Of a DNA stretch of 34,373 bases, positions 914-30,290 are shown one piece after another (positions within the stretch are counted from its first letter, which is position 1; every line of letters starts with the position of its first letter). The translations under genes were made by a program, and so were the position numbers. Origin of the DNA: Rhodoferax sp. Lineage in GTDB: Bacteria; Pseudomonadota; Gammaproteobacteria; Burkholderiales; Burkholderiaceae_C. Location of the stretch: contig JANXVI010000184.1 in NCBI GenBank assembly GCA_025351745.1, positions 1-34,373 of the forward strand, in the 5' to 3' direction. The notes beneath the pieces were generated by a model. It made no database searches. It was not told where the DNA came from and worked only from the letters and a program-made list of their open reading frames with translations.

Positions 914-2513
914 GGCTTGCACATCCTGTTCATCCACCCATCATAGGCTACCGTTGGTTGCAACGATTCTGATCGTTCTGCCTTGGCTCAATCCGTTTTC
1001 GCCTGGGCCTACGCCTGCCGTGGTTCCCTGGATGTTTTCATGGGCATGTATCTCGGCGCTGCTCATCACGACGGGCTTTTTGGGCCAACGGATGGATCGT
1101 CACAGTTATGGGGCTGCAATCGCAAATGCCTGGTTGATTGCGTCGCTGTTGAGTGCTTCCATTGGTGTGCTGCAGTATTTTGGGCAAACGCCGGCCTTTC
1201 TGAACCCGTGGTTCAACACCGCTTCGGTTGGCGAAGCCTTTGGCAATTTGCGGCAGCGCAACCATTTCGCCACCTTGTGCAGCATCGGTTTGCTGGCGTT
1301 GGTGTGGCGTGCGGCGCGTCGGGGGTCAGCGCGCGAGGCTCTGCCATTCATGCAATGGGTGTCGTGGGGCTTGAGTGCGCTGCTACTGGCCTGCGCCAAC
1401 GCAGCCAGTGGATCGCGAACCGGCTTTTTGCAATGGTGGCTGGTGGCGGGGCTGGGTCTGCTGTGGTGGTGGCAAGGTCGGAAATTGGATAAAGGAATTG
1501 AAGCCCCGCAGGCCCTACCAGCTGTGATGGGTGCTGTTGCATTGGCCTTGTACCTGGTGAGCCTATGGCTAATGCCGCAGGTGCTGGAGATTGCCACGGG
1601 CTTTACCAGTGACGGACTGCTGGGGCGGTTCAAAGATGAGGCGGGCTGCAGCAGCCGCCGCATCCTGTGGGCCAATGTGCTGCACCTGATCGCGCAAAAG
1701 CCTTGGTTTGGTTGGGGTTGGGGGGAACTGGGATTTGCCCACTTCGTGACGCTGTACCCTGGCGAGCGCTTTTGCGATATTTTGGATAATGCGCATAACT
1801 TGCCACTGCATCTGGCGGTTGAGCTCGGGGTACCCTTTTCTCTTTTGGTGTGCGGCGTGCTGGGCTGGCTGGTGTGGCGCGCCAAACCCTGGCGTGAGCA
1901 GGTCGCCATTCGGCAATTAGCCTGGGGCGTGCTGGCCGTCATTGCCTTGCACAGTCTGTTGGAATATCCGCTGTGGTACGGGCCGTTTCAGATGGCCGTG
2001 GGCTTGTGTGTGTGGCTGCTTTGGATAACGGCGCACGAATCCTATGCATCGAGGGTAGAGGCGCCTTCGGAAATGTCCATTTTGGCTAGTCGACCCGTAG
2101 CTCTCGTACTTGTTGGATTTATTGCTATATTTTTAGTAGTATTTTTGCTTTTTTCCGCATGGAGCTATTGGCGCGTGAGCCAGCTATATTTGTCGCAGCC
2201 CGAACGGGCAGCGGCCTATCGCGAGCACACGATGGACAAAGTGCGCGACACATGGTTGTTCCAGAATCCTGTGCAATTTGCCGAATTGACCACAACGCCG
2301 CTGGCGCCCGACAATGCGGCGCCTCTCCATGCCCTAGCGCAGCAGCTCTTGCATTTTTCGCCTGAGCCCCGGGTGGCTGAAAAGCTGATCGACAGTGCTG
2401 TGATGCTGGGTCGCGACGACGTGGCGGAATATTACTTGGTGCGTTACAAGGCAGCCTTCCCCAAAGAGCACTCGCTGTGGAAAGAGCAGTTACGCGGCGA
2501 CAAAACTCCCTGA
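912..2513 (+). CDS. O-antigen ligase / pilin glycosylation ligase family membrane protein (PglL/Wzy_C type)
   Basis: A 533-residue polytopic membrane protein with about a dozen hydrophobic segments. It should transfer a lipid-linked glycan to pilin or another acceptor in the periplasm. It has the N-terminal PglL-type segment around [15 protein letters not shown], the family motif [13 protein letters not shown] near residue 114, and the large periplasmic loop with [16 protein letters not shown] near residue 295, typical of Wzy_C ligases. A soluble C-terminal tail follows the last helix. The start at 912 was chosen because upstream residues are proline-rich and unlike the family; a later TTG near 954 is possible. 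Neighbours support glycan work: a sugar dehydrogenase upstream and TfpZ downstream. The last helix (about residues 395-411) is encoded by a family A repeat. The 3' end overlaps convergent moaC by 24 bases. Confidence 0.85.
2096..2142 (-). repeat. Family A repeat, copy inside the ligase gene
   Basis: Read on the minus strand it shows the family A order: TAAAAATATAGC on the left and ACGAGAGCTAC on the right. On the plus strand it is translated as [17 protein letters not shown] within the last transmembrane segment of the ligase. It matches the copy at 3872-3936 closely over the GGA..TTGCTATAT..TAGTA core. Confidence 0.7.
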
Positions 2514-2978
2514 CTTGCCCCCATGTTTTTCCAGCAGCTTCACGTCGTTGATGGTCATGCCGCGATCAACGGCCTTGCACATGTCGTAGATAGTAAGCAA
2601 AGCGACCTGCACGGCATTCAGTGCTTCCATTTCCACGCCGGTGGGTCCGACGGTTTCGGCGGTGGCTCGGCATTGCACGTGGGCGGCGCGCGTTGCCGTA
2701 GTAGAGACGACCGTAAACTCCACGGCCACACGGGTCAGGGCTATGGGATGGCACAGCGGGATGAGGTCACTGGTCCTCTTGGCGCCCTGGATGCCAGCGA
2801 TGCGGGCAATCCCCAGCACGTCACCTTTCTTGGCATTTCCCGATTCGATCAGCGCCAGTGTGGTGGGCAGCATATCTATGCGTCCACTGGCCATGGCAAT
2901 CCTGTGTGTGGCGGGCTTGCTGGCCACATCTACCATGTGGGCTTGGCCTTGGGCGTCAAAATGGGTCAGGTTCTGCAT
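2490..2978 (-). CDS. moaC: Cyclic pyranopterin monophosphate synthase MoaC
   Basis: A 162-residue cytoplasmic enzyme that converts the MoaA product into cyclic pyranopterin monophosphate in molybdenum cofactor synthesis. The whole family pattern is visible: [15 protein letters not shown] at the N-terminus, [47 protein letters not shown] and the end [28 protein letters not shown] (quoted in part: [10 protein letters not shown]). The start at MQNLTHFD fits homologues; an ATG seven codons upstream (2999) is an alternative. It stands alone between the ligase and TfpZ on the opposite strand, with no other moa gene nearby. Its 3' end overlaps the ligase end. Confidence 0.97.
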
Positions 2979-3082
2979 GGGGAGTTTTGAAAATGGCAAA
3001 AAACGCCCTAAAGTGGGAGCCTATCAACTTTACCTGAGCTTGGCACTTGCGCAGGCCCGTTTCAACTACGCTTGACTACCGT

Positions 3083-3865
3083 ATGAATATGATGGAAACC
3101 AAAGCCCCCCCATTTTGGCCTGACCGCCTCAAGGCCAGTGCCATCCACTTGTCACTAAGCCTGCTGATTGCCGCGCTCGCAGCGGCATTGGTCTTTGGCG
3201 TTTGGTATCCGTACCCCTACCGTGAAATCTCTGGCGGTAGAGACCTGTTCATGATCCTGGTGACTGTGGACGTGATTTTGGGCCCGTTGATGACCTTGGC
3301 CGTCTTCAACCGTGTCAAGCCATGGCCCGTGCTGCGGCGGGATCTGATCTTCATCGCTGTGTGCCAAATGGTCGCGCTGGGTTACGGCCTATGGACTGTG
3401 AGTGCCGCGCGCCCGGTACATATGGTGTTTGAATACAACCGTTTCAGCGTTGTACATGCGGTTGATATTCCCGCCCAAGAGTTGGTCAAGGCGCCGGCGG
3501 GTATCGATGCCCTGCCACTGAATGGGCCCAGCCTACTGTCCCTGCGCGCGTTCAAGGATGAGAATCAAAAAATTGACTTAACGCTTGCCGCGGTAGGAGG
3601 TGTGGGGCTGGCGGCCCGGCCCGAGCTGTGGCAGCCCTATGCCAGCGCGCTGCCCGAGATACTGAAAGAATCAAAACCGTTGAGTCAACTCAAAGCGCGG
3701 TATGCCAACCGGGCTGATGAAATAGACCGTGTAGTGACCAAGGCAGGCGGCAACCCGCAAACCGTGCGTTACCTGCCGCTGATCGGCCGCGATAACTTCT
3801 GGACCGTGTTCGTGGACCCGGTTGACGCCCACATTGTGGCCACCATGCCATTGGACCCATTTTGA
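3083..3865 (+). CDS. TfpX/TfpZ-family type IV pilin accessory protein
   Basis: A 260-residue inner-membrane protein with three or four N-terminal hydrophobic segments (about residues 12-35, 48-68, 80-100) and a periplasmic C-terminal domain. The motifs WYPYPYREISGGRDLFMILV and VDVILGPLMTLAVFN are typical of TfpX/TfpZ accessory proteins, which assist assembly or modification of particular type IV pilins. The pilin itself is not in this window. The ligase 570 bases upstream fits the same pathway, although moaC lies between on the other strand. The ATG at 3083 was chosen; in-frame ATGs at 3089 and 3092 are equally possible. The stop TGA overlaps the TTG start of the next gene. Confidence 0.85.
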   Translation: MNMMETKAPPFWPDRLKASAIHLSLSLLIAALAAALVFGVWYPYPYREISGGRDLFMILVTVDVILGPLMTLAVFNRVKPWPVLRRDLIFIAVCQMVALGYGLWTVSAARPVHMVFEYNRFSVVHAVDIPAQELVKAPAGIDALPLNGPSLLSLRAFKDENQKIDLTLAAVGGVGLAARPELWQPYASALPEILKESKPLSQLKARYANRADEIDRVVTKAGGNPQTVRYLPLIGRDNFWTVFVDPVDAHIVATMPLDPF

Positions 3866-5511
3866 ATAAATGCCTTAAGCAAAATTGCCGTCTAGCCCTC
3901 GTCATTGCTGGACATCTTGCTATATATATAGTAGCAACTGGATTTCTCCCGGTGGGTTATGCGCAGACCACCAGCGTAGCCACCGCGCCTTCCAACACCG
4001 GCCTCCCCAACCTGGGCGATGGCACCGACATGACCCTCGGCGCCGAGCGCAAACTGGGTGACCGTATCGCCCGTGAGCTGTACCGCGACCCAGACTATGT
4101 GGACGATGCAGTGCTGATGGAGTACGTGCAGGGCATCTGGCAACCTCTGTTGACGGCAGCCCGCGTGCGAGGCGAGTTGCCACCGGAGCTCGACAGTGCT
4201 TACGCCTGGGAGATCCTGCTTGGTCGAGACCACACCGTGAACGCCTTTGCGCTGCCGGGCGCCTATATGGGATTGCATCTGGGCCTGGTTGGCGTTGTCA
4301 CCAGCCGGGACGAGCTTGCCTCGGTCCTTGCGCACGAACTGAGCCACGTCACCCAACGCCACATTTCCCGCATGATGACGCGCCAGGCCCAGCAGGCGCC
4401 GTGGCTGATGGGCATGATGATTTTGGGCGTGCTGGCCGCTGGTAAAAACCCCAATGTCGCCAGCGGCGTGTTGGCCGGAACGCAGGCTGCAGGTGCGCAA
4501 AGCCAACTCAATTTCTCGCGCGACATGGAACGCGAAGCCGACCGTGTAGGGTTCACCGTGTCAACCCAAGCCGGTTTTGCTCCCCAGGGCTTTGTGTCGA
4601 TGTTTGCAAAGCTGCAGCAGGCGTCCCGTCTAAACGACGCAGGCAATTTCCCCTACCTGCGCAGCCATCCGCTGAGCAGCGAGCGCATGGCAGACATGCA
4701 GTCGCGTATCGAGTTGCCAGACGCCGGCACCATGCCCAAGCCCACCGCGCGCCAGAACGTACAAGAATTCGATCAGTCGATGATGTCAGCGCGTGCCCGG
4801 GTGTTGTCCAATTCAGCGGTGGATGCGTTGCGGACCTGGTCAATCGAGGCTGACCCCGCTTTGCTGGCCAAGCTCCCTGCAACACAGCAGGCGGGCACTC
4901 TGTACGGTGCCACGCTGGCCGCGATAAAGCTGCGCGACTTCAAAAGTGCCGAAACCCAGTGGACCCGCTTGGCGGACACTGTGCGCCAAGATGCACCGGC
5001 GGCCCGCCTCGCCCAACTTTTGGGGGCGGAGCTCAAGCTCGCACAGACAGATGGCGCTGGCGCTCTGCGCCTGTTGCAGACAGGTGCCAAACCGTTTGAT
5101 AAAACCAGCCGCGCCGAACTATTTTTGATGGCGCAGGCAGATCTGCAATTGAGCACTCTGGTGCCTTCAAGCGGCGCTGCTACGCGAGCCGAAAAAAGCC
5201 CTGCCAGCACCTTGGAGGCGATAACCCAAAACCTGCAGACCTGGGTGGCAGACCACCCGCTGGATGCCCAGGCCTGGCAACTGCTGTCCAGCACTTACGC
5301 CGCCGAAGGACGCACGCTCAGCTCCATACGGGCGCAGGCGGAAGTCAATGTCGCTCAGCTGGATTACCCAGCCGCGCTGAGCCGCTTCAAGACCGCGCAG
5401 GATTGGGCTCGCAAGGGCGGCGCCGGCACCGACCATTTCGAGGCGTCCATCGTCGACACCCGCACCCGCCACGTGGAATCACTGGTTCGGGAACAGGCTC
5501 TGGAGCGCTGA
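3862..5511 (+). CDS. M48 family metalloprotease, BepA/YfgC-like, with TPR region
   Basis: A 549-residue periplasmic zinc protease probably acting in outer-membrane protein quality control, as BepA does in E. coli. The zinc motif HELSH is at residues 158-162, the third ligand Glu225 lies in MEREADRVGF, and NAFALPGAYMGLHLG and HPLSSERMADM are family landmarks. The C-terminal half (from about residue 300) is helical and TPR-like. No ATG is available before the conserved part, so translation must start at TTG 3862 (TTGA overlap with tfpZ stop) or a similar weak codon. The signal peptide (RLALVIAGHLAIYIVATGF... ending near VGYAQ) is almost wholly encoded by a family A repeat, so the original leader may have been replaced. 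The 3' end overlaps the convergent next gene by 33 bases. Confidence 0.92.
   Translation: MNKCLKQNCRLALVIAGHLAIYIVATGFLPVGYAQTTSVATAPSNTGLPNLGDGTDMTLGAERKLGDRIARELYRDPDYVDDAVLMEYVQGIWQPLLTAARVRGELPPELDSAYAWEILLGRDHTVNAFALPGAYMGLHLGLVGVVTSRDELASVLAHELSHVTQRHISRMMTRQAQQAPWLMGMMILGVLAAGKNPNVASGVLAGTQAAGAQSQLNFSRDMEREADRVGFTVSTQAGFAPQGFVSMFAKLQQASRLNDAGNFPYLRSHPLSSERMADMQSRIELPDAGTMPKPTARQNVQEFDQSMMSARARVLSNSAVDALRTWSIEADPALLAKLPATQQAGTLYGATLAAIKLRDFKSAETQWTRLADTVRQDAPAARLAQLLGAELKLAQTDGAGALRLLQTGAKPFDKTSRAELFLMAQADLQLSTLVPSSGAATRAEKSPASTLEAITQNLQTWVADHPLDAQAWQLLSSTYAAEGRTLSSIRAQAEVNVAQLDYPAALSRFKTAQDWARKGGAGTDHFEASIVDTRTRHVESLVREQALER
3872..3936 (-). repeat. Family A repeat forming the M48 signal peptide
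   Basis: On the minus strand it reads TTGCTACTATATATATAGC on the left, then ACGAGGGCTAGACGGC and ATTTTGCTTAAGGC on the right, a full-length copy. On the plus strand it encodes RLALVIAGHLAIYIVAT. Confidence 0.8.
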
Positions 5512-5832: not shown

Positions 5833-5913
5833 GGCTGCAAGAATAGCACTTCGTCGGCAGTGCGGGGCTATGATGCGCTTGCCCAATTTGGGTAGCATTC
5901 CTCTGCCTGTGCG

Positions 5914-6345
5914 TTGCCAAACATTCACATTACCGACATCGAGTCGGCCATCAATTTCTGGCGCACGCGCCTGCCCTCATCTGATGGCGTGACGCTGCCT
6001 GCGCCCACGCGTTCGCTGGCGCAGGTGTATGGCGGCATGGTGTACGACCATGCGCTACAGGTGGAGGTGGCTGCCTTGTCTGAGGCGGCCCATGCGGCCT
6101 GGATGGAGTGGTACGACAGCACGCCCGACACGCCCTGCATCGCCATCTGCTCCACCAGCCAGGGCGACGCGCAGTGCAAGGGCTGTGGCCGCACATTTGA
6201 AGAAGTGCAACGCTGGTTGGGCATGGACCCGATCGAGAAACGCGACACTTGGCACCGCATCACTGTCGAGGGCACGGCCTGGCGTTTCAACAAATATGCG
6301 GAACGGGCAGCCGAGAGATGTGCAAAAATGCTATCTAATTCATAG
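5914..6345 (+). CDS. DUF3717-DUF1289 fusion protein
   Basis: A 143-residue cytoplasmic protein of unknown function. Residues 1-70 match the DUF3717 pattern (IHITDIESAINFWR at the start). Residues 72-110 match DUF1289, a small cysteine cluster: Cys75-x3-Cys79 in TPCIAIC and Cys88-x2-Cys91 in CKGC, followed by RTFEEVQRWLGM, which could bind a metal. A TTG start at 5914 is used because IHITDIE is the expected beginning. The final residues MLSNS and the stop codon lie inside a family A repeat, so the C-terminus was probably altered when the repeat arrived. Confidence 0.85.
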   Translation: MPNIHITDIESAINFWRTRLPSSDGVTLPAPTRSLAQVYGGMVYDHALQVEVAALSEAAHAAWMEWYDSTPDTPCIAICSTSQGDAQCKGCGRTFEEVQRWLGMDPIEKRDTWHRITVEGTAWRFNKYAERAAERCAKMLSNS

Positions 6346-6390
6346 CTTGCTGCCCAATGCGTACGAGGGCTAGAGGCCAAGTTCATTTAA
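6328..6390 (+). repeat. Family A repeat at the 3' end of the DUF1289 gene
   Basis: Reads ATGCTATCTAATTCATAGC, then ACGAGGGCTAGAGGCC and TTCATTTAA. The stop TAG of the upstream gene (6343-6345) is within the left arm, which forms a short inverted repeat (GCTAT...ATAGC). Confidence 0.8.
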
Positions 6391-6452
6391 CTCTTGTCGC
6401 CAGCGGCGTGCGACGCAAGCCTTCAAGTGCACCAGTATCAAATAAGTGAATT

Positions 6453-7583
6453 ATGAAACCATCGCAATGGGGTATCTTCCCGACAAACGATCCTGAACAG
6501 ACGCTGCGCTTAAGGCGTTTCTTCGTTGGCTCGGCGATCTATCTGATGACTGTCGCGTTTGCGTTGCTGTGTTGGGCTCTGGGCTTTCTGGATGATCGCA
6601 TCACGATCACCTACGCATCGACCATCCTGGCGAGCAATGTCATCCTGTACTGTGTGCTGCGCAGCGGCCTGAACAAACGCTTTAAGGATCCGAGCCTCAC
6701 CACTTTCCAAATCATGGTGTCAGCCGCGCAAGGTATGTATGTCATGTATTTTGCCGGCCCGGCGCGGGGTGCATTTTTGCTGCTCGGGGTGGCACTCTTT
6801 TCGTTTGGCATGTTTCGACTCGACACGCGGGGTTTTTTGAAACTGGCCGCCGGGATGCTCTTGGTGTATGCGCTGATGGTGGCGGCGCTGGTGTATTTCC
6901 AGTCCGAGACTAGCAACCTGCGCCTGGACTTGTTGTTGGGCGTTGCGTTCGCCATGACGCTTGCGCAGTTCAGTCTTCTGGCGGGCATGGTGAGCGACTT
7001 GCGGCACAAGGTCAGCGACAAGAATCGCACATTGGCCAAGCAAAACGCGGAACTTGAAGTCGCCTTGCAACGCATCAATGACATGGCGATTCGCGATGAG
7101 CTGACGGGCGTCTACAACCGCCGTTATCTGATGGAGCGCATCACTGAAGAAACGGTACGTAGCCAGCGCAGCGGCGCCACGTTTTGCCTGTGTATGGTGG
7201 ACATTGATTTCTTCAAGAAAATAAATGATGGCTACGGCCATTTGGGCGGTGATGAAGTGCTGCGCAGGGTCGCGCGTGCCGCGTCGGGCGCGCTGCGTGA
7301 AGGAGACTTTTTTGGGCGCTACGGGGGCGAGGAATTTGCCATACTGCTGACCAACACCACATTGGACGGCGCCATGGTCACCGCCGAGCGGGTACGCACC
7401 CAGATTCACAACCTGAGGTTTCCAGAGATCAACGAGAATTTGCAGGTCAGCATTTCTCTGGGGGTCGCTGAGCACCTGCGCCAAGATCCGGCCAATGTGA
7501 CTTTGCAACAGGCCGATGAGGCGCTGTACTGTGCCAAGCACAATGGGCGCAACCAAAGTGTGGCAGCCCCAGCCCGCGCTTAG
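6453..7583 (+). CDS. Membrane-bound diguanylate cyclase (GGDEF)
   Basis: A 376-residue inner-membrane enzyme that should make cyclic di-GMP from two GTP. Residues 20-185 hold about six hydrophobic segments forming a membrane sensor of no named type; residues 185-210 look like a short coiled coil. The GGDEF domain follows from RDELTGVYNRRYL. The active-site motif is GGEEF at residues 291-295, so it should be catalytic, and the inhibitory I-site RxxD is present as REGD at 282-285, five residues before it, predicting product inhibition. It stands alone, 62 bases beyond the repeat, and ends four bases before convergent yaeQ. The membrane ligand is unknown. Confidence 0.95.
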   Translation: MKPSQWGIFPTNDPEQTLRLRRFFVGSAIYLMTVAFALLCWALGFLDDRITITYASTILASNVILYCVLRSGLNKRFKDPSLTTFQIMVSAAQGMYVMYFAGPARGAFLLLGVALFSFGMFRLDTRGFLKLAAGMLLVYALMVAALVYFQSETSNLRLDLLLGVAFAMTLAQFSLLAGMVSDLRHKVSDKNRTLAKQNAELEVALQRINDMAIRDELTGVYNRRYLMERITEETVRSQRSGATFCLCMVDIDFFKKINDGYGHLGGDEVLRRVARAASGALREGDFFGRYGGEEFAILLTNTTLDGAMVTAERVRTQIHNLRFPEINENLQVSISLGVAEHLRQDPANVTLQQADEALYCAKHNGRNQSVAAPARA

Positions 7584-7587
7584 GGGC

Positions 7588-11083: not shown

Positions 11084-11871
11084 GGGGTGAGGCGGCGCGC
11101 CAGTTGGAAGAACAGGCGAGTGGGCATGAGGCGCAGTGCCTTGAGCCACAGCGTAAAGCGCTTGGGGAAGTGGATTTCAAACGCGCCCAGCGCCCAGCCA
11201 TGCAGGATGGAGTGCGCCGCTTGCGCGGGTGTCAGCAGGGCGGGCATTGCAAAGTCGTTGCTCGCGGTCAGCGGGGTCTGTACAAAGCCTGGGTTGATGA
11301 TGGAGACGCCCAGGCCCTTGCCGTGCAGGTCCAGGTACAGCGTTTCGGCCAGGTTAATCAGCGCCGCCTTGGTCGGGCCATACGCCAGGCTATTGGGCAG
11401 CCCTCGGTAGCCTGCCACACTGCCTACCAGGCTGATGTGGCCGCTACCCCGCGCCAACAAAGCCGGCAGCACGGCATCCAGCACATACAGAGCACCGAGG
11501 TAGTTGACCTCGTTGTGGCGCACCATGTCGGGTAGGTCCAATGCGTCGGCGCGCATGGCGGCGTAATGCCCGGCGCAATACACCACGCAGTCCAGCGGCC
11601 CCTGTGCCAGCAATTGCGCGGCGGCGGCCTTGACCGCCAGGGGCAGGGTGACATCCAGCGCCAGCGACTGGCTGCCCGGGTGCGCATCGACAAACCCGGC
11701 CAGTGATGCGGCGTTGCGCGCCGACACCACCACACGGGCGCCTTGACCATGTAAGGCCTCGGCCGTCGCCTGGCCGATGCCGCTGGACGCACCGACGATC
11801 CATACGGTCTTGCCAGCCCAGTCCGCCTGGGGCGGGTTGAGCGGTGGCAGGAAGACGTTAAGTAGGGGCAT
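11080..11871 (-). CDS. Short-chain dehydrogenase/reductase
   Basis: A 263-residue NAD(P)-dependent oxidoreductase. The cofactor motif is GASSGIG at residues 27-33, DVT lies near residue 72, the NAG-like motif appears as YCAG, and the catalytic pair is Tyr164 and Lys168 (YGPTK), with a serine about 14 residues earlier. The C-terminal 30 residues (FTLWLKALRLMPTRLFFQL) are hydrophobic or amphipathic and may touch the membrane. The start at MPLLNVFLPP was chosen because everything upstream in frame is family A repeat. It probably reduces or oxidises a lipid intermediate in the operon's pathway; this is inference from neighbours. Confidence 0.93.
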   Translation of the reverse strand: MPLLNVFLPPLNPPQADWAGKTVWIVGASSGIGQATAEALHGQGARVVVSARNAASLAGFVDAHPGSQSLALDVTLPLAVKAAAAQLLAQGPLDCVVYCAGHYAAMRADALDLPDMVRHNEVNYLGALYVLDAVLPALLARGSGHISLVGSVAGYRGLPNSLAYGPTKAALINLAETLYLDLHGKGLGVSIINPGFVQTPLTASNDFAMPALLTPAQAAHSILHGWALGAFEIHFPKRFTLWLKALRLMPTRLFFQLARRLTP

Positions 11872-11885
11872 GGTGAAAGATGCTC

Positions 11886-11943
11886 TGAATTTGATAGCTG
11901 AGTGTGTAGATTGGACGAGGGCTAGCGGCCTATTTTCCTTAAG
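11886..11943 (+). repeat. Family A repeat between DUF3833 and SDR genes
   Basis: Intergenic copy reading GAATTTGATAGC, then ACGAGGGCTAGCGGCC and TATTTTCCTTAAG. It fills nearly all of the 83-base gap, the largest gap in an otherwise tightly packed operon. Confidence 0.85.
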
Positions 11944-11954: not shown

Positions 11955-12599
11955 TCAACGCTTGGTGAACGACAACGTCACTTCACCCAAGCGCATGCCA
12001 AACTTGGACATGGCGGCCTTGTTCAGCATGACCTTGTCGCTCACCAGGTACATCCAGTCGTCGAACTGGACGTCGATAACCCGTGCCGCCACGCTTGCCG
12101 CCTCGCGGGGTGCGCTGCCCCCACTTCCGGAGGGGTCGCTGCGCACCGGGGCACTCGCGCCTTGGGGCGGTCCGGCGTCGCTCGGCTGTTCTCCAATCGG
12201 CAGGCGCAGCGTGTAGGACCAGTGGAAGGCATTGCCACGGCTTTCGCCCATTGCTTCACCAACTACGTCGTCGGCACGGCCCACGAAGCGGCCATTGCCG
12301 AGCTGTTTGAGGTGCCAGATGCGGGTTTGTTTGGTTCCGTCGGAGTAGCTGAAGTCTTCGTTCAGCACGCCCTCGTCCCCGGTCCAACTGCACAGCATCA
12401 GCACGGTAAAGCGTTTGACGACGGAACCCGACCGGTCGGTAAACACGCCATAGGCGTCCAGCGTGCCGTTGAAGTACTGCTGCAAGTCCAGCCTGGGTTG
12501 CTGGTTGGCATAGTCGTCTATGTTTTGGGTCGCGCAACCCCCCAAAAGAAGTGCAAAACTGGCGCCAGCAAGGGCTAGGATCAATCGCCGTTTCATCAT
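11955..12599 (-). CDS. DUF3833 lipoprotein with an inserted low-complexity segment
   Basis: A 214-residue predicted lipoprotein: the N-terminus MMKRRLILALAGASFALLLGGC has a lipobox ending at Cys22. The body matches DUF3833 (LDLQQYFNGTLDAYGVFTDRSG, WHLKQLGNGRFVGRADDVVG, DVQFDDWMYLVSDKVMLNKA, FGMRLGEVTLSFTKR; each shorter than the family). The protein's biochemical role is unknown, but the family travels with FAD oxidoreductase/DUF1365/cyclopropane synthase clusters. Residues about 138-172 (PSDAGPPQGASA... to REAASVAAR) are proline/serine-rich and interrupt two conserved strands; this is a family B repeat in frame. The ATG overlaps the MFS stop. Confidence 0.88.
   Translation of the reverse strand: MMKRRLILALAGASFALLLGGCATQNIDDYANQQPRLDLQQYFNGTLDAYGVFTDRSGSVVKRFTVLMLCSWTGDEGVLNEDFSYSDGTKQTRIWHLKQLGNGRFVGRADDVVGEAMGESRGNAFHWSYTLRLPIGEQPSDAGPPQGASAPVRSDPSGSGGSAPREAASVAARVIDVQFDDWMYLVSDKVMLNKAAMSKFGMRLGEVTLSFTKR
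12083..12190 (-). repeat. Family B repeat inserted in frame in the DUF3833 gene
   Basis: The minus strand contains GAGGCGGCAAGCGTGGCGGC, which matches the insert in the cyclopropane synthase gene in the same frame, preceded by a GC-rich core with CCTCCGGAAGTGGGGGC. Boundaries are approximate, set from where the DUF3833 pattern resumes. Confidence 0.65.
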
Positions 12600-13915
12600 G
12601 AAGTTCTCCGCAAAATGAATCCATACAAAAGCAGGGCTGCCAGCAGCTTCAGCGCGCATGGCAACAGGCAATAGGCCATGCTCAGCACTTGCAAGGCCTG
12701 GGGGTCGCGCGTGCCGGGCACATAGCCCAGCGCGCCCAGCACCGGCAGCGCGACGCCGGCGGCCAGCGCCAGGTTGAGCTTGGTCGCAAAATTCCACCAG
12801 CCAAAGTACGCGCCCTCCGCCTGGCCGCGGTCGCCGCTGTCGGCAATGGTGCCCGCCAAAAGCGCAGCGGGCAGCACCAGATCGGTCCCCAGTGCGGCGC
12901 CCGACAACGCGCAGACCAGCAAAAATCCAGCCAAATCCCCGGCACCCAGCGCCAGCGCAAAGGCAAATACAGCGATGGAAAGCAGCATCCCCAGCCCCCA
13001 GGTACGCGCAAGGCCGATTCGCCCCACCAGCCGCAACCACAGCGGAATGGCCGACGCAGCGCAGACAAAGTAAACGCCCAAAAACAAAGGTTCCCAAGAC
13101 GTCGGGGCCTGTAAACGGTCTTGTACAAAAAACAGCAACAGCGTGGCCGGCAGGGCGCTGGCAATGCCGTTCACGACAAACACGGCTAGCAGCGCACGAA
13201 AACCGGGGCGTGTGAAGGGCAGGGTCATGCTGGAGCGCGCCGAGGGATAGACGACAGCGCTTCCACTACCGATCTCCGTGCGATGCTGGGCGGGCGACAG
13301 AGCAAGTGGTGGGGCTGGTGCCTTGCTCCAACCCAGCCAAGCCAACATCAATGCTATAAAAAGCAGAGCGGTAGTGCAAGGTAATCCGAGGGCTACAGGG
13401 CTGATTGATGCAATGACGACACCCAGCAGGCCCAAGCCTTCACGCCACGCGACGATGCGGCTGCGCTGCACTTCGTCGCCACCCAGCCGCGCGCCCCAGG
13501 ACTGGTGCAACACGCTCAAGGCGCTGTAGGCGGCATAAGTCAGCGCGAGCGCGGCCGCCGCCCATAGCAGCACCGGTTGCAAGGCCCGCACCGGTGGGAA
13601 GAACAATGCAGTAAAACCCAGGCCCAGCGCAACTGCAGCCACGGCCGCCCAGCGCAAAACAACCGCAGCCGAGCGTGTAAAGAGCCCGTCGCTCCAGCGC
13701 CCCAACAGCGGGTCGATCACTGCGTCGAACAAGCGGGCCCCCAGCAGCAGCAGGCCCAGGCTGGCCAGCGGCACGCCAAAGGCGCGCGCGTAATGGTTAG
13801 GCAGCAGAACATACAGCGGCAGCGCCACAAACGCTAGTGGCAGGCCCATCAAGCCATAGCGCCAGCCCTGGCGCCAGGTGAAGGCTGCAGCGGCAATGGG
13901 GCTCGCGGCGCTCAT
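12596..13915 (-). CDS. MFS transporter (MFS_2/GPH-like)
   Basis: A 439-residue inner-membrane protein with about twelve hydrophobic segments. The loop motif GARLFDAVIDPLLGRWSDG near residues 50-68 is typical of the MFS_2/GPH group. Within this operon it could move a lipid precursor or flip a lipid rather than import sugar; this is inference. The start at MSAASPIAAAAFTWRQGWRYG overlaps the stop of the upstream gene (ATGA). Residues about 172-189 (SPVALGLPCTTALLFIAL) are encoded by a family A repeat and form part of a membrane helix. Confidence 0.9.
   Translation of the reverse strand: MSAASPIAAAAFTWRQGWRYGLMGLPLAFVALPLYVLLPNHYARAFGVPLASLGLLLLGARLFDAVIDPLLGRWSDGLFTRSAAVVLRWAAVAAVALGLGFTALFFPPVRALQPVLLWAAAALALTYAAYSALSVLHQSWGARLGGDEVQRSRIVAWREGLGLLGVVIASISPVALGLPCTTALLFIALMLAWLGWSKAPAPPLALSPAQHRTEIGSGSAVVYPSARSSMTLPFTRPGFRALLAVFVVNGIASALPATLLLFFVQDRLQAPTSWEPLFLGVYFVCAASAIPLWLRLVGRIGLARTWGLGMLLSIAVFAFALALGAGDLAGFLLVCALSGAALGTDLVLPAALLAGTIADSGDRGQAEGAYFGWWNFATKLNLALAAGVALPVLGALGYVPGTRDPQALQVLSMAYCLLPCALKLLAALLLYGFILRRTS
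13350..13402 (+). repeat. Family A repeat inside the MFS gene
   Basis: The plus strand reads ATGCTATAAAAAGCAGAGCG, then CCGAGGGCTACAGGG. It is opposite to the gene, so translation runs through it as SPVALGLPCTTALLFIAL, the same orientation and codon frame as the copies in the ligase and M48 genes. Confidence 0.75.
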
Positions 13916-14511
13916 GGGGCGGCGTGGGCCAGCAAGGCGGCGCGCAGGCGGGGTTCGCTGGTGGAGTCGGCCAGCCAGATACCGAAGAACGCGCGGCTGA
14001 AATCCGGGTCGGCCACTACGGCCCGGGCCACGCCGTTGAGCCAAAAACGGGCACCCACGCCGGGTTGGTGCAGCCCGGTAAGCCGATCACCCGTTTTGAC
14101 ATCAGGAAACGCCTCTTGCATCGCGGCCAGCCATCGTTGCTCTTGCACTGGCGCCAAGGTTGCCGACTTGCGCATTTCCTCCAGCGAACGCTGGGCAATG
14201 GCGTGGCCATCCAGGTTGCGCAAATAGCGCAATTGCAGCGCCAATACCGATTGCGTATAGCGGCGCGCACTGAAACCCGGCGCCACCCACAGCGATGCGT
14301 CATAGACGTTGAAGGTGAAGTAACGCATGCGGGCAGTGCCCACCCATTGCGCGACGGGCAGCTCGGTCGCGAGCTCCGGTGGTGCCACCAAGGGGCTTGA
14401 CCCAGGCCCCGACTCCTGCGCTTCCACCATGGCCGGAGCGCCGAGCGCTACCAAGGAAAGCCGGCTGAGCGTGGTAGCGCTCGCAAGAACCATGGTACGG
14501 CGGTTCAGCAT
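13912..14511 (-). CDS. Chalcone-isomerase-like exported protein
   Basis: A 199-residue protein with an N-terminal signal-like stretch (MLNRRTMVLASATTLSRLSL, cleavage probably after VEAQ). The segment MRYFTFNVYDASLWVAPGF, followed by LQLRYLRNLDGHAIAQRS and the end SRAFFGIWLADSTSEPRLRAALL, is the chalcone isomerase-like family found in many proteobacteria. Bacterial members are usually not plant-type isomerases, and I assume a lipid- or fatty-acid-binding role at most. It is located between the cyclopropane synthase and MFS genes and overlaps the MFS start. An in-frame ATG six codons later is an alternative start. Confidence 0.85.
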   Translation of the reverse strand: MLNRRTMVLASATTLSRLSLVALGAPAMVEAQESGPGSSPLVAPPELATELPVAQWVGTARMRYFTFNVYDASLWVAPGFSARRYTQSVLALQLRYLRNLDGHAIAQRSLEEMRKSATLAPVQEQRWLAAMQEAFPDVKTGDRLTGLHQPGVGARFWLNGVARAVVADPDFSRAFFGIWLADSTSEPRLRAALLAHAAP

Positions 14512-25700: not shown

Positions 25701-26917
25701 TTGCGGCAACCAGTAGCAATGTCAGTACTAGTCCCGTCAGCATGGGCTATCTACCCACCAGCGTGGCATTGCGCGCGCGCGAACTTACCGTGGGTGGGCG
25801 CAAGCTGAATAACGTCATTGTCGGGGGTGGGCGCGACGGGCTGCTGTGGCGGGCCAACATGGATGCGTCAGAGATCAATGGGTATGTGGAATACCGCCCA
25901 TCATCAGGCGCGAATGCCGGGCGCCTGTACGCCAGGTTGGCCCGTTTGGTGATTGCCCAGAGTACGGCACAAGATATGGAGAGCGTGTTGGACGAGCAGC
26001 CCGCCAGCATTCCGGCGTTGGACATTGTGGTCGAAGACTTTGAGCTGCGTGGCAAGAAGCTGGGCAAAGTCGAGATCGACGCGGTCAACGTGGGTGCCAG
26101 CGCGTCGGCGGTGTCGCGCGACGTGCCGCGTGAATGGCGCTTGAATCGCTTCAACATCACCACACCCGAAGCTGCGTTGACAGCCAATGGCAACTGGACC
26201 AATATCAATGCACAGGCGGGCCCCGTGGCCGGGCGCAGCATCAAGGAGCGCCGCCGTACTGTGATGAACTTCAAGCTCGACATCCGTGACTCAGGTGCGT
26301 TGCTGGACCGCTTTGGCATGAAGGGCGTGGTGCGCAAGGGCCCGGGCAAGGTGGAGGGCCAAGTGGCTTGGCTCGGCTCCCCCATCACGCTGGACTACCC
26401 TAGCCTGTCGGGCAACTTCAACATTAGCGTGGAGAATGGCCAGTTCCTGAAGAAGGACCCCGGCATAGCCAAACTGCTGGGCGTGCTGAGCCTGCAGTCG
26501 CTGCCACGGCGGCTGGCGCTGGATTTCAGGGACGTGTTCAGCGAAGGCTTTTCCTTTGATTTTTTTCGCGGTGACGTGTCGATTGCGCAAGGCATTGCCC
26601 ACACCAGCAATCTGCAGATGAAAGGCGTCAACGCCCTGGTTGCCATGGAAGGGCAGGCCGACATAGCGCAAGAAACCCAGAAAATCAAGGTATTGATCGT
26701 CCCTGAACTCGACGCCGGCACCGCGGCCCTCGTTGCCGGTTACCTGAACCCGGTCATCGGGTTAGGTACCTTTCTGGCGCAACTGGTCTTACGCCGACCC
26801 TTGATCGAAGCCAACACACATGAATACACCATCGACGGCAGCTGGCTCGACCCACAAATCACTGAGGTGAAGCGCAAGTCGGGCAGCCGCGCAAGCAAAT
26901 CCGAGGAACCCAAATGA
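22784..26917 (+). CDS. yhdP: YhdP family AsmA-like envelope protein (TIGR02099 type)
   Basis: A 1377-residue protein with one N-terminal membrane helix (AFWVVASIWMALFIVWGALH, residues about 26-45) and a very long periplasmic part. The beta-rich body with repeated RLEGG/GTATAEG-type strands, and the C-terminal AsmA_2-like region (FNISVENGQFLKKDPGIAKL, FSFDFFRGDVSIAQGIAHTS, PELDAGTAALVAGYLNPVIG) match YhdP. In E. coli YhdP, TamB and YdbH form bridges for phospholipid transport to the outer membrane. The stop TGA overlaps the ATG of the next gene (ATGA), so the two are translationally coupled. The start overlaps the divergent glnE start region. Confidence 0.94.
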   Translation: MTQLTPNPSRVLRAGAFVVRTAFWVVASIWMALFIVWGALHFVIVPRIADFRPMLEEQVSRVLGVTVRIGAIVARSNGLIPSLELNDVRMLDSQGREALKLPSVMAALSARSLMGLGFEQLTVDRPELDVRRSADGRIWVAGLPLPKGDSADSTGADWVMSQPELVIRHGTVTWTDEMRNVPPLALTDVDWVLRNQHRTHSVRLDANPPAHWGERLSVSGIFKQRLLSRRASDWKDWEGQIYANFAQVDLAQLRLYADLGVNLEQGVGAVRAWVDVARGSITGATADLALDGVKVTVNPKLEALVLRGISGRLGAKTIDGGIEFSTKALQFQTDDGLHWPGGNVRLTLLAGDKNKPQSGELVADKLDLAAMTQIANRLPLNEAVRGQLVQLAPKGLVEQLQGNWLGPIEEPTRFSAKGHVAQLEIASRSVGAGARPGFRGADIDFDINQSGGRATIAMRTGALDLPGVFEEAILPLDQLNGDVQWKIDNGQISVGLPSLRFSNADAQGELQLKWQTAPVSAAPGANQAGQTASRFPGILDLQGTMSRADATKVHRYLPLGIPQNVREYVREAVTAGTASSVKFKVKGHLHDFPFATAKQGDFRISADIHKATFSYVPGILLPKDAPQWPALTDLSGELVIDRSVLQVKGATGNLKGATGLRITKVDGTVDSLYHGATVSVVAEAQGPLADVLGFVNASPLNALMGKPLEHATASGPADYKFKLALPIAAVDHATVRGTIALGGNDIQITPDTPRLTRARGTINFSETGFSLAGAQARALGGDVRLEGGMGGKAGGPQQLRLQGTATAEGLRQARELGFAGRLAAYANGTAAYTATLGFRAGIPELLINSNLVGMALNLPAPFAKTADTPLPLRVETSAVKASLGVGSDGGIHLQDQLQLEVGKLVSVVYVRDASGPEARVLRGALAVGLAADESAPLPTEGVVANVNVASIDVDAWTDILSRAAGADLSATTIAATSSNVSTSPVSMGYLPTSVALRARELTVGGRKLNNVIVGGGRDGLLWRANMDASEINGYVEYRPSSGANAGRLYARLARLVIAQSTAQDMESVLDEQPASIPALDIVVEDFELRGKKLGKVEIDAVNVGASASAVSRDVPREWRLNRFNITTPEAALTANGNWTNINAQAGPVAGRSIKERRRTVMNFKLDIRDSGALLDRFGMKGVVRKGPGKVEGQVAWLGSPITLDYPSLSGNFNISVENGQFLKKDPGIAKLLGVLSLQSLPRRLALDFRDVFSEGFSFDFFRGDVSIAQGIAHTSNLQMKGVNALVAMEGQADIAQETQKIKVLIVPELDAGTAALVAGYLNPVIGLGTFLAQLVLRRPLIEANTHEYTIDGSWLDPQITEVKRKSGSRASKSEEPK

Positions 26918-27729
26918 AGATAGCCGCCCTACAAATGGTGTCCACCGGCGATCTGGAGCAGAACCTGCTGCAGGCCCGTGGTTTGCTGGAACAGGCCGCG
27001 CAGCAAGGCGCTGAGCTGGTTGTGCTGCCAGAATACTTTTGCCTGATAGGCCATCGCGATGCGGACAAGCTGACCATCCAGGAGGCGTTTGGCAGCGGCC
27101 CGATCCAGACTTTTCTGGCAGACACTGCCCGTGCGCTGGGCCTGTGGGTGGTGGGTGGTACCTTGCCGCTTGCGGCCTCCAGCCCCGAACGCGTCTACAA
27201 CAGCGCACTGGTCTTCAACCCCGAAGGCGCATGCGTCGCGCGATATGACAAGATGCACCTGTTCCGCTATGACAACGGTGTCGAGTCGTATGACGAATCA
27301 CGCGTGTTGGACCCGGGTACGCACCCGACCCGCTTCGCGTTGCCGTCAAGGGATGGCCACGTCTGGCAGGTGGGTCTGAGTGTGTGCTACGACCTGCGTT
27401 TTGCCGAACTGTACCGCGGCTATGCGCGCGAGGGTGTGGACCTTCTGCTGGTGCCAAGCGCCTTCACCCATACCACCGGCCAGGCGCATTGGGAGGTTTT
27501 GCTGCGCGCGCGTGCCATTGAGAACCTGGCCTACGTGGCTGCTGCTGCCCAGGGCGGTGAGCACCCCAATGGTCGGCGCACTTGGGGGCAATCGATGGTT
27601 ATCGACCCTTGGGGCTTGATCCTCGCGCAGCGGGCGCAAGGTGCCGGTGTGGTGTGCGCCGATCTGGACCCGCACACGCTGGCAAAGTGTCGCGCCCAGT
27701 TGCCGGCGCTGCAGCACCGGCTGCTGTAG
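26914..27729 (+). CDS. Carbon-nitrogen hydrolase (Nit1/Nit2-like amidase)
   Basis: A 271-residue cytoplasmic nitrilase-superfamily amidase with the full catalytic triad: Glu40 (VLPEYF), Lys113 (YDKMHLF) and Cys158 (SVCYDLRFAELYR). The sequence YDKMHLFRYD and RARAIENLAYVAAAAQGG, followed by SMVIDPWG, place it with Nit1/Nit2, of which the bacterial members repair deaminated glutathione. The exact substrate is inferred. It is coupled to yhdP by an ATGA overlap, an arrangement I believe is common in Burkholderiales, without a known functional link. Confidence 0.93.
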   Translation: MKIAALQMVSTGDLEQNLLQARGLLEQAAQQGAELVVLPEYFCLIGHRDADKLTIQEAFGSGPIQTFLADTARALGLWVVGGTLPLAASSPERVYNSALVFNPEGACVARYDKMHLFRYDNGVESYDESRVLDPGTHPTRFALPSRDGHVWQVGLSVCYDLRFAELYRGYAREGVDLLLVPSAFTHTTGQAHWEVLLRARAIENLAYVAAAAQGGEHPNGRRTWGQSMVIDPWGLILAQRAQGAGVVCADLDPHTLAKCRAQLPALQHRLL

Positions 27730-27756
27730 TTGTGCGGCAGCGGGGCATCTAATGGG

Positions 27757-27819
27757 CGCTATGAAAAATATAGTGCTTAAGACATATTCCACGAGGGCTA
27801 GCGGCTGTTTTTACCTAAG
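27757..27819 (+). repeat. Family A repeat at the 3' end of the small membrane protein gene
   Basis: Reads ATGAAAAATATAGTGCTTAA, then CACGAGGGCTAGCGGC and TGTTTTTACCTAAG. On the minus strand it provides the last codons (GKNSR) and the TAG stop of the gene at 27798. Confidence 0.85.
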
Positions 27820-27992
27820 TCGTCGGCTGGAGCTGCTTGCTGGACCTCTCCCGGGGCGGACGCAGCGCGTGTTGTTTCAGCAGGCGGTTCTGTCGGCAGT
27901 TCACCATTCTTGCGTCCCGAAAACATGGTCCACCAGATGATTCCAATGAACAGCATCCCTGCGCCCAGGGCCTCCAGCAATAGCAATGACAT
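27798..27992 (-). CDS. Small single-pass membrane protein of unknown function
   Basis: A 64-residue protein starting MSLLLLEALGAGMLFIGIIW, then WTMFSGRKNGELP and a short polar tail. One transmembrane helix is followed by a positively charged cytoplasmic segment. I recognise this as a conserved short protein in Comamonadaceae, but no function is known to me. Longer in-frame readings that start further upstream run antisense through mltA and are not real. Its ATG (27992-27990) is almost touching the GTG start of mltA (27994). The C-terminal residues and stop are in a family A repeat. Confidence 0.7.
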   Translation of the reverse strand: MSLLLLEALGAGMLFIGIIWWTMFSGRKNGELPTEPPAETTRAASAPGEVQQAAPADDLGKNSR

Positions 27993-27993
27993 C

Positions 27994-29142
27994 GTGAAAC
28001 GGCTCCTGGCCTGTGGGTGGTTGGCCCTGATTGTAGGAAGTCTGGTGGCCTGCGGCAGCGCGCCGTTATATGCCCCTGCACCCCAGACCCCGCCGCGGAC
28101 CGAGCCTGCCCGTAGCAACGTACCGATCGATGTGCCCGGCACGCTGAACCCGTCCAAGGGCCGTTGGGTGCCAGCGGCGTGGAGCGATTTGCCGGGCTTT
28201 GCCGATGACAGCCTGTTTGAAGCCTGGAACGCGTGGATCAAGAGTTGCGAGCGTCCCGTCGCGGCGTTTGCCCGACTGTGTGCTGACGTGCGCCGTCTGA
28301 GCATTGGCAACCCGGACGAGCAGCGCGCTTGGATGCAAGAGCGCCTGCAGCCCCTTCGCGTGGAGACCGTGCAGGGCGAAGCTACCGGATTGCTGACCGC
28401 CTACTATGAACCAGCGCTCGAAGCCAGCCGCCTGCCCAATGCCAACTTCGGCGTGCCTTTGTACCAGCCGCCCGCCGGGCTGGCACAGCGCAAACCGTGG
28501 TACACCCGGCAGGAGATGGATACCCTGCCTGAAGCCCAGGCCGCGTTGCAGGGAAAGGTGATTGCCTATTTGGCCGACCCTATTGATGCGTTGATGTTGC
28601 AGATTCAAGGCTCGGGGCGCATCCGCATCACCCAGCCCGACGGTAGCGAACGCTGGGTACGTTTATCCTATGCCGGAACCAACGACCAGCCCTACCGCAG
28701 CGTGGGGCGCTGGTTGCTCGACCAAGGCCTGATCCGCGACGCATCGTGGCCCGGCATCAAGGCCTGGCTGGGCCAGAACCCGCAGCGCCAGCAGGCTCTG
28801 CTGTGGAGCAATCCGCGTGTGGTGTTCTTCCGCGAAGAAGTCCTTACCGCACGCGAGGCCAGCGATGGTCCGCGCGGTGCGCAGGGCGTGGCGCTGACAC
28901 CTGGGCGCTCCATCGCGGTGGACCCCACCAGCATTCCGTATGGCACGCCACTGTGGTTGTCCTCTACCGGTCCCCAGACCACGCTGCAAAAGCTGGTGCT
29001 GGCTCAGGACACTGGCAGCGCCATTACCGGTGCTGTGCGGGCCGACTATTTTGTCGGCTGGGGTGCGCAGTCCGGTGAGTTGGCCGGGCGGTTGCGCCAG
29101 CCGCTGCAGCTGTGGGTTTTGTGGCCCAAACCCACCAGATAA
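27994..29142 (+). CDS. mltA: Membrane-bound lytic murein transglycosylase A
   Basis: A 382-residue lipoprotein that cleaves peptidoglycan between MurNAc and GlcNAc with formation of 1,6-anhydroMurNAc. The start is GTG 27994, giving the signal VKRLLACGWLALIVGSLVAC, with lipidation at Cys20. The MltA domain runs through GLLTAYYEPALEASR and LQIQGSGRIRI, and the C-terminal 3D domain has the aspartates in VALTPGRSIAVDPTSIPYG and LAQDTGSAITGAVRADYFVG (Asp in LAQDTG and RADYF). Any ATG upstream lacks a signal sequence in position. The gene is followed by the CheV-type gene after 85 bases. Confidence 0.93.
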   Translation: MKRLLACGWLALIVGSLVACGSAPLYAPAPQTPPRTEPARSNVPIDVPGTLNPSKGRWVPAAWSDLPGFADDSLFEAWNAWIKSCERPVAAFARLCADVRRLSIGNPDEQRAWMQERLQPLRVETVQGEATGLLTAYYEPALEASRLPNANFGVPLYQPPAGLAQRKPWYTRQEMDTLPEAQAALQGKVIAYLADPIDALMLQIQGSGRIRITQPDGSERWVRLSYAGTNDQPYRSVGRWLLDQGLIRDASWPGIKAWLGQNPQRQQALLWSNPRVVFFREEVLTAREASDGPRGAQGVALTPGRSIAVDPTSIPYGTPLWLSSTGPQTTLQKLVLAQDTGSAITGAVRADYFVGWGAQSGELAGRLRQPLQLWVLWPKPTR

Positions 29143-29209
29143 CGTTACTATGATCGCTAATGCTGCGTCGCAGTACCAGGATTGTTTCAGCCCTTTAACC
29201 ACCACCACT

Positions 29210-29230
29210 GACATCGGGGAACACGCCATG
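29210..29230 (+). promoter_or_regulatory. Shine-Dalgarno GGGGA for the CheV start
   Basis: GGGGAA lies about seven bases before ATG 29228 and decides this start; the in-frame codons upstream are antisense-like and belong to the mltA region. Confidence 0.6.
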
Positions 29231-30178
29231 AGCACCATGCGGGACATCGACGAGCGGACCAATCTGGCTTCCAACAGCATGTTCGAGTTGCTGCTGTTCC
29301 GTCTGGGTGAGGCACCGGGTACCGACCGGCGCGAGTTGTTTGGCATCAACGTGTTCAAGGTGCGCGAGATTCTGGTCATGCCTGAGATCACAGCCATGGT
29401 CAATATGCCGCCTACCGTCATGGGCGTGGCCAATATCCGTGGCCAGATGATCACCGTCATCAACCTGCCCAAGGTCGTGGGCTGCAACCCGGTCAAGGGC
29501 CTGGGCATCTTGCTGGTCACCGAGTTTGCCCGCACCACACAGGCTTTTGCCGTGGAAGAGGTCAACGAGATCGTGCGCCTGGAATGGAAGCATGTGCTGT
29601 CGGCCGAGAACAGTGGCGGCGGCCTGGTGACCAGCATTGCGCGGCTCGACGGCAATGCCGAGAACACACGGCTGGCCCAGGTGCTGGATGTAGAGCAGAT
29701 CCTGCGCGATGTCATGCCGCAGGAGCATAGCTCCGATGTCGATGCCTCAAAGGTAGGCGCCGTCAAGTTGCCCCCGGGTAGCGTGGTTCTGGCAGCCGAC
29801 GACTCGCCCGTGGCGCGCCTGATGATCGAACAGGGCCTCAAGGCCATGGGCGTGCCGTATGTCATGACCAAGACCGGCAAGGAAGCCTGGGACATGCTGG
29901 AGACCATGACCGAGAAGGCGATTGCCGAGGGCAAGACCATACAAGACAAGGTGGCCGTAGTGTTGACCGACCTGGAAATGCCGGTCATGGACGGTTTCAC
30001 ATTGACCCGCAACATCAAGCAAGACGGCCGCTTCAAAGGCATCCCGGTCATCATCCATTCTTCGCTGACGGGCTCGGCCAACGAGGGCCATGTCAAGAGT
30101 GTGGGGGCAGATGCTTATATTGCCAAATTTGTAGCCGAAGAACTGGGCGCGACTATTCGCCAGGTGCTGTCACGCTAG
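29228..30178 (+). CDS. CheV-type chemotaxis coupling protein (CheW + receiver)
   Basis: A 316-residue cytoplasmic protein. Residues 1-170 are a CheW-like domain (NSMFELLLFRLGE, FGINVFKVREILVMP, GVANIRGQMITVINLP), which couples methyl-accepting receptors to CheA. Residues 175-316 are a response-regulator receiver: ADDSPVARLMIEQG with the acidic pair, the phosphoacceptor Asp248 in LTDLEMPVMDGFTL, the Ser/Thr at HSSLTGSANEGH and the lysine in DAYIAKF. The receiver probably tunes adaptation. No other chemotaxis gene is in the window. The start has a good Shine-Dalgarno. Confidence 0.93.
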   Translation: MSTMRDIDERTNLASNSMFELLLFRLGEAPGTDRRELFGINVFKVREILVMPEITAMVNMPPTVMGVANIRGQMITVINLPKVVGCNPVKGLGILLVTEFARTTQAFAVEEVNEIVRLEWKHVLSAENSGGGLVTSIARLDGNAENTRLAQVLDVEQILRDVMPQEHSSDVDASKVGAVKLPPGSVVLAADDSPVARLMIEQGLKAMGVPYVMTKTGKEAWDMLETMTEKAIAEGKTIQDKVAVVLTDLEMPVMDGFTLTRNIKQDGRFKGIPVIIHSSLTGSANEGHVKSVGADAYIAKFVAEELGATIRQVLSR

Positions 30179-30229
30179 AACGAGGCATCGTTGTCGACGG
30201 GCTGGCGTGTGCACGGGTTGCCAACTACG

Positions 30230-30290
30230 CATGCTATATATTATGTAGCAAAGAGTCTATATTGCACGAGGGCTACAAGGTATTTTTGTT
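30230..30290 (+). repeat. Family A repeat between the CheV and DadA-like genes
   Basis: Reads ATGCTATATATTATGTAGC, then GCACGAGGGCTACAAGG and TATTTTTGTTG. The left arm is close to the M48 copy (GCTATATAT..TAGCA). The remaining ~290-base gap (30179-30468) holds nothing else I recognise. Confidence 0.8.

Follow-up and report, generated by a model that had tools for sequence, protein, structure and literature searches.

A dispersed 64-bp DNA element of Rhodoferax and its relatives as a candidate uptake signal

The 34,373-nucleotide contig JANXVI010000184.1 of a Rhodoferax sp. (assembly GCA_025351745.1), hereafter the window, carries seven copies of a short dispersed DNA element that recurs in large excess in its own genome and in related genomes. 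From the sequences compared here the element is real, widespread and maintained, and in its testable features it resembles an uptake sequence, the weak points of the likeness being the apparatus and the length. We read it as a composite DNA recognition signal of approximately 64 bp which may be spread and kept by biased recombination, working like the uptake signal sequences (USS) and DNA uptake sequences (DUS) of other bacteria, and we give this reading a probability of roughly 45%. Membership of USS or DUS is not claimed, because uptake itself is inferred here.

The element spans 63–64 nt without gaps, as seen in 66 copies with the exact core, four of them from the window and 62 from 60 stretches of the same genome. 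It runs in the order yGCTAY, seven variable bases, RTAGC, a half-conserved middle tnctaACGCAtATTCC, the core ACGAGGGCTAG, CGGCC, tATTT and CTTAAg. The spacing of these blocks is constant and gap-free across the 66 copies, which were selected by their exact core, and conservation ends abruptly on either side with almost none outside. A weight matrix was trained on these copies, including the window copies at 3874, 6328, 11880 and 27756; those at 2079, 13351 and 30231 belong outside the training set, and copies close to contig ends were left out of both alignment and profile. The resulting 64-nt profile finds all seven window copies at 21–71 bits. The seven copies listed by a first-pass annotation of the window are thereby confirmed with corrected extents, and the order which it described, a left dyad, a variable middle, the ACGAGGGCTAG core and a T-rich right end with CTTAAG, holds. 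That annotation had not noted that two of the copies, those at 2079 and 13351, fall within called genes. The five best window copies have a G+C content of 37–47%. The seven copies are as follows.

Copy 1, 2079..2142, minus strand, 27.6 bits: inside a Wzy_C_2/O-antigen-ligase-type gene (ORF 801-2513, plus strand, Pfam), antisense to it.
Copy 2, 3874..3937, minus strand, 59.9 bits: between a gene stop at 3865 and the called start, at 3952, of an M48 peptidase gene (Pfam on ORF 3862-5511); the same place is occupied in the congeners G003 and G064.
Copy 3, 6328..6391, plus strand, 58.7 bits: overlaps the 3' end of a DUF3717/DUF1289 ORF (5914-6345, plus strand), upstream of a GGDEF gene (Pfam).
Copy 4, 11880..11943, plus strand, 71.4 bits: between a DUF3833 ORF ending at 11955 (minus strand) and a short-chain dehydrogenase gene with its called start at 11871 (minus strand); aligned with 11 loci; genomes without the element have a spacer approximately 84–97 bp shorter.
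Copy 5, 13351..13414, plus strand, 21.1 bits: inside an MFS_2 transporter gene (ORF 12596-14044, minus strand), antisense to it; equal in length to element-free orthologues and gap-free in 16 aligned rows.
Copy 6, 27756..27819, plus strand, 65.4 bits: 27 bp past a gene ending at 27729 (plus strand).
Copy 7, 30231..30294, plus strand, 46.0 bits: between a gene ending at 30178 (plus strand) and a DAO-family gene (ORF 30403-31716, plus strand, Pfam).

The stretch 6314-7583, the region of the GGDEF gene, lies outside the syntenic matches of both G003 and G064, so that its gain or loss took place next to copy 3.

At a threshold of at least 10 bits the profile gives 202 matches across loci totalling 903,356 bases, against none in the same sequence reversed. 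Over 2,360,386 bases it gives 569 matches, a count in which overlapping loci are counted repeatedly and training copies are included, and ten column-shuffled profiles give none in 806,679 of these bases. The first-pass annotation had proposed a profile scan of the genome and its relatives, and the large excess found in both supports one dispersed non-coding family. In the source genome (G000; 5.10 Mb, 498 contigs, 91.7% complete) the exact core 11-mers number 86 forward and 81 reverse, 167 in all, while the reversed control gives 2 and 0. Adding the rate of 14 non-exact copies per 273,836 bases leads to a rough estimate of approximately 430 copies for the whole genome. The density of one copy per ~5 kb proposed earlier is right for the window and too high genome-wide, where the rough estimate is about one per 12 kb.

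The survey of the genus, made with the profile R1 at E<=1e-6, detects the element in 31 of 61 congeners, 24 of them with 14 to at least 78 matches and seven with 1 to 8, and gives no profile match in the other 30. In the family, 35 of 150 genomes and 32 of 141 genera have a match when the best 31 candidates are scored per genome. A pattern scan of named genomes returned at least 111 stretches; among the 80 listed, 33 are assigned to Rhodoferax, four to Curvibacter and three to Polaromonas, and the rest bear labels of higher rank. The carriers are water and soil bacteria. Among 72,556 plasmid records three have a match, and the 50,697 phage records yield one weak match (30 nt, E 0.5).

Copies inside genes, as far as alignments tell, are mostly not insertions. 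At the first of two sites in the gene of the CCA-adding enzyme the left dyad overlies the conserved TIN(S/A)IA motif; the element is present there in 22 of 30 fetched genomes and missing from eight, and 12 of the 22 carriers, including G066 with a copy of 73.5 bits, have the same loop length as six of the eight element-free genomes. Among the alignments listed, length is also unchanged at the second site of this gene, near the C terminus, and at the MFS_2 site of window copy 5. Element-free orthologues thus align without a 21-residue gap at all three sites, which argues that the motif was built there by substitution. For all coding queries together the alignments with element-free orthologues have a length change of 0 in 118 of 200 cases and of -21 in none, a tally that draws on few independent genes, counts some decayed sites in carriers as orthologues and drops non-spanning alignments. 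The copy in AroA differs from solved homologues by five residues and that in an XdhA-type protein by two, and a copy in a 3-hydroxyisobutyryl-CoA hydrolase-like gene goes with a 9-residue gap, three residues of which are counted in the element. The Wzy copy is ambiguous: in the alignments listed, its length change is -5 to -12 compared with relatives that lack the element.

Between genes, whole copies can be gained as well. At one operon junction in G003 and G064 approximately 76 bp with a copy separates two genes which overlap (TGATG) in seven genomes (G000, G066, G050, G007, G060, G042 and G048), and this is a clean gain. The first-pass annotation had suggested a look for empty sites, and this junction, without the element in the seven genomes and with the ~76-bp gain in the two, supplies one. 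The same junction holds a different, G+C-rich repeat in G009, G075, G015, G001 and G020, and short spacers of other kinds in G018, G070 and G057. The G+C-rich repeat is about 100 bp long with arms of the CCGGC..GCCGG and GGGGG..CCCCC type (L137:8070-8170, L140:8640-8740, L141, L144, L148); it may be the betaproteobacterial repeat element (BRE), a dispersed repeat, or a relative, and its pattern has no match in the window.

The resident copies are maintained, to judge from a comparison of orthologous sites. It used orthologues other than the query copy, with a length change within 12 and a flank identity of at least 72%; the query was left out because a copy chosen by its score could by itself make conserved positions look conserved. 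Noncoding sites have an identity of 0.81 at positions conserved in the family versus 0.55 at variable ones (10 of 10 sites in this direction, p=0.002), and coding sites 0.76 versus 0.65 (6 of 7, p=0.047). A smaller first run had pointed in the same direction at 6 of 6 noncoding and 8 of 9 coding sites. Duplicate loci (L001-L008, L099-L128, L150, L180 and L321) were dropped from this analysis and from that of gains. The copies also follow lineage dialects. The core ACGAGGGCTAG makes up 167 of the 177 matches to ACRAGSGCTAG in the source genome, ACGAGCGCTAG is the core in 10 of 13 cases in G007 and in 12 of 18 in G020, and in G064 six of the eight copies read carry G as the fourth core base, the dialect ACGGGGGCT. 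A common skeleton of the element extends to other genera.

With gene calls made by a simple script with an order-3 model, which trims some starts, the 81 copies of at least 20 bits in loci of the source genome are distributed as 23 in genes, 29 in tandem gaps, 20 in convergent gaps, 4 in divergent gaps and 5 at edges. Gap length would place the 53 intergenic copies at 28.1 tandem, 12.3 convergent and 12.6 divergent, so that convergent gaps are enriched and divergent gaps depleted; in 37 of the 49 intergenic copies with a facing stop codon, this stop is at most 40 bp away. One frame accounts for 11 of 13 sense and one for 9 of 10 antisense coding copies, a restriction which is expected if frames with stops are excluded. 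Both strands are used. In the complete genome G064, a capped subset of 150 scored sites comprises 66 on the plus and 84 on the minus strand, without two-block strand polarity along the chromosome (p=0.16), and their spacing is slightly more even than random (coefficient of variation 0.87 versus 0.99, p=0.04). A replication-polar signal was rejected for lack of such polarity.

Over-representation on both strands, origin within genes by substitution (both CCA sites, MFS, AroA and XdhA, with aconitase as the exception and Wzy ambiguous) and lineage dialects are features that the element has in common with uptake sequences. We infer uptake or recombination as the selecting agent, together with the receptor and each of the steps that follow. 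A putative DNA receptor at the cell surface, part of the competence/type IV pilus apparatus, would prefer fragments bearing the motif, the imported fragments would replace homologous stretches of the chromosome, and changes that improve the motif would thus be copied more often than lost. Within genes the motif would be built by substitution within the limits of reading frame and protein, whereas between genes whole copies could also be gained as short insertions brought by recombination. Each lineage would have its own dialect, and a lineage losing the preference would lose its copies.

Known uptake sequences, as described in the sources available, offer a parallel for most of this. USS, of which 2,206 are reported in the H. 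influenzae genome, evolve through point mutation, not as insertions of an element (PMC7811141), DUS are mostly intergenic with many new gains that suggest insertion by recombination (PMC2397512), and the dialects of DUS track phylogeny (PMC3630211). The USS of H. influenzae, the DUS of Neisseria and the present element all occur dispersed over both strands in hundreds of copies, some of them coding and built in genes by substitution (PMC2397512, PMC3630211, PMC7811141), and they also share a frequent position at gene ends, intergenic gains by recombination and lineage dialects. The differences are that the element has 64 bp in several blocks in contrast to a 9–12-bp core with or without AT tracts, that its copies number ~430 against ~2,000, that it occurs in other bacterial families, and that its receptor and its uptake role are only proposed here. 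Within the Comamonadaceae, Verminephrobacter eiseniae is reported to take up DNA selectively, an excess of salmon DNA even at 1500:1 having cut its transformation only about ten-fold, and Acidovorax temperans is reported, with data not shown, to be transformed only by DNA of its own species; the part of this source available to us names no signal behind the selectivity (PMC4212676). The preference of A. temperans could also be explained by the limits of homologous recombination. A broader version of the reading, with the odds leaning modestly against it, is that the element forms a separately evolved Comamonadaceae class of uptake signal, a dyad, core and A/T block of ~64 bp maintained through molecular drive. 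Such a class would account for the self-DNA preference published for Verminephrobacter and Acidovorax and would set carrier and non-carrier lineages apart within one genus.

Several observations weigh against an uptake signal. ComEC, by which alone the apparatus was judged, does not separate the two groups: 27 of the 31 carriers and 28 of the 30 non-carriers have it. No ComEC candidate is seen in the carrier G042, which is 99% complete with 77 of 78 scored candidates matching, nor is there a ComEC match in the less complete carriers G012, G020 and G046. In G042 the second CCA site is lost and the MFS site is weak; such decayed sites would fit a recent loss, in this one lineage. The motif is far longer than USS and DUS and, at an estimated one copy per 12 kb, far sparser. 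The ~76-bp intergenic gain would also be expected from a mobile element, the aconitase copy, which has 22 extra residues relative to IRP1, looks like an in-frame insertion on alignment, and the CCA loop just past the element is 6 to 12 residues longer in the source genome, where it is 12 longer, and in some others. A 7.2-kb Polaromonas plasmid (NZ_MG869627.1) bears a copy 15 bp past a gene end (L392:5001-5053). In the comparison of conserved with variable positions, moreover, the orthologous window is the best profile match, which may favor conserved positions at weak sites.

The strongest rival, although unlikely, is a mobile palindromic element, either like those of Rickettsia or a repetitive extragenic palindromic (REP) sequence or miniature inverted-repeat transposable element (MITE) moved in trans, which would enter genes in frame and later be kept as useful or harmless. 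Its sharp ends and fixed length, the preference for gene ends, the copies on plasmids, the clean gain in G003 and G064 and the aconitase copy are all as such an element would have them. Against it, the ends of the element are not inverted repeats of each other, a flanking repeat of at least 6 bp, as a target-site duplication would leave, occurs at 1 of 76 copies versus 3.2% of 746 control positions, and the left dyad has no compensatory changes. The resident copies are constrained, and those in CCA (both sites), MFS, AroA and XdhA overlie conserved protein sequence with no 21-residue insertion. The source genome has a single Y1_Tnp gene, of the type of the REP-associated tyrosine transposases (RAYT) (L149, G000:C412), and no profile copy lies in its 3.3-kb locus, a result limited to Y1_Tnp since transposases of other kinds were not searched for; mobilization by RAYT was rejected on these grounds. 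The proposal in the first-pass annotation of a MITE- or REP-like element moved in trans is thus not supported, and the search for a RAYT which it suggested gave no copy at that gene. The Y1_Tnp gene itself seems, by eye, to be flanked by its own repeats of the GGGGTC-GATTCCAATT type, and at about 1085–1165 of the locus there is an element-like stretch seen by eye only and missed by the profile.

The element is like REP/RAYT systems and MITEs in being short, numerous, mostly extragenic and without a gene of its own, and unlike them in the lack of inverted ends, duplications, hairpin covariation and a profile copy beside the Y1 transposase gene. Rickettsia palindromic elements, like the present one, have copies inside genes in limited reading frames. 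The present element differs from them in that most coding copies examined replace sequence rather than add to it. BRE, as far as its description in the available text goes, is ~90 bp long with 69% G+C, often tandem, dispersed, mostly intergenic with some copies in genes, and present in the Comamonadaceae among others (PMC3110155). The two are alike in their dispersed and mostly intergenic placement, in having some copies within genes and in occurring in this family, but that description sets BRE apart by length and G+C from an element of 64 bp whose five best window copies are much poorer in G+C, and identity with BRE is unlikely on size and composition.

A somewhat more doubtful rival is a binding site for an abundant chromosome-organizing or replication-related protein, selected for its function in the cell. 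The fixed spacing of the GCTA/TAGC dyad and the core, conserved as DNA half-sites without covariation, would suit a protein ligand, as would the constraint and the dialects and the slightly even spacing in G064. Orientation, however, is unbiased with position, half of the congeners are without the element, which would be unusual for a housekeeping site of chromosome architecture, and the information content, although partly inflated by the choice of exact cores, would be far above the need for a few hundred sites. A transcription terminator or 3'-end mRNA element is very improbable: the closeness to facing stop codons, the bias toward convergent and away from divergent gaps and a strong stem seen by eye in one G003 copy speak for it, but RNAalifold predicts no pair in a consensus structure, no compensatory change is seen, none of the seven window copies matches an Rfam family (E<=1), both orientations are used and 23 of the 81 copies lie inside genes. 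An RNA element was rejected on the same absence of an Rfam match, consensus structure and covariation. By eye, one intergenic copy (L129:11520-11583 and L131:10595-10658) contains a perfect stem of 10 bp, AAAGCGCCTC/GAGGCGCTTT, which sets it apart from the others; it may have been co-opted as a terminator or mRNA hairpin.

Parts of the element family have probably been seen before, without a function. Among the potential novel motif pairs of PMC5217627 (2017) are GCTTAT(N)5AAGCG with 114 copies in Acidovorax ebreus and ATAGCT(N)22CAAAAG with 125 in Polaromonas naphthalenivorans, both mostly near gene ends (for the A. ebreus pair 44 convergent, 4 divergent and 59 co-oriented), and Rhodoferax ferrireducens T118 has, with 140, the most motif pairs among the genomes of that study. 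Of the 569 elements scanned, one contains the first pair, in register (-9 to +6), and the loci have no other occurrence of it; the second is absent from all 569 and from the loci as a whole, so that the Polaromonas pair is only putatively identical with this element. The pairs come from the same bacterial family, have copy numbers of a similar order and lie mostly near gene ends; they differ in comprising two short halves only, with function unassigned and coding copies not analyzed in the portion of that paper at hand (PMC5217627). The open-licence literature yielded nothing on an uptake role for this motif and no report of uptake sequences in the Comamonadaceae, of uptake sequences linking the Neisseriaceae, Pasteurellaceae and Betaproteobacteria, or of miniature inverted repeats in the Comamonadaceae; the five papers there that contain one of six core words (11-mers) are unrelated by title.

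Sequence-marked DNA uptake has been attributed to two families only, according to the part of PMC7811141 available. If the uptake reading is true, the element would add a third, and its signal would be far longer. Since carriers, non-carriers and several dialects coexist within one genus, the question of drive versus selection could then be tested in a new system. The self-preference seen in the transformation of Comamonadaceae, so far unexplained, would likewise gain a candidate signal. Should the uptake reading be wrong, some agent is still needed to recognize a 64-bp motif which is built by substitution over conserved protein sequence and then maintained.

Three minor observations concern individual genes. 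Most carriers have two sites in the single gene of the CCA-adding enzyme, 288–300 codons apart (L065:1516-2802, with orthologues in L181-L209). In two similar long genes (L014:372-3173 and L029:1-2511) the element occupies one and the same place in the coding sequence, with almost identical peptides, so that this coding copy was duplicated along with its gene. The ComEC gene of the source genome (L058:1173-3626, G000:C132) has a copy of 62.4 bits inside its Competence domain.

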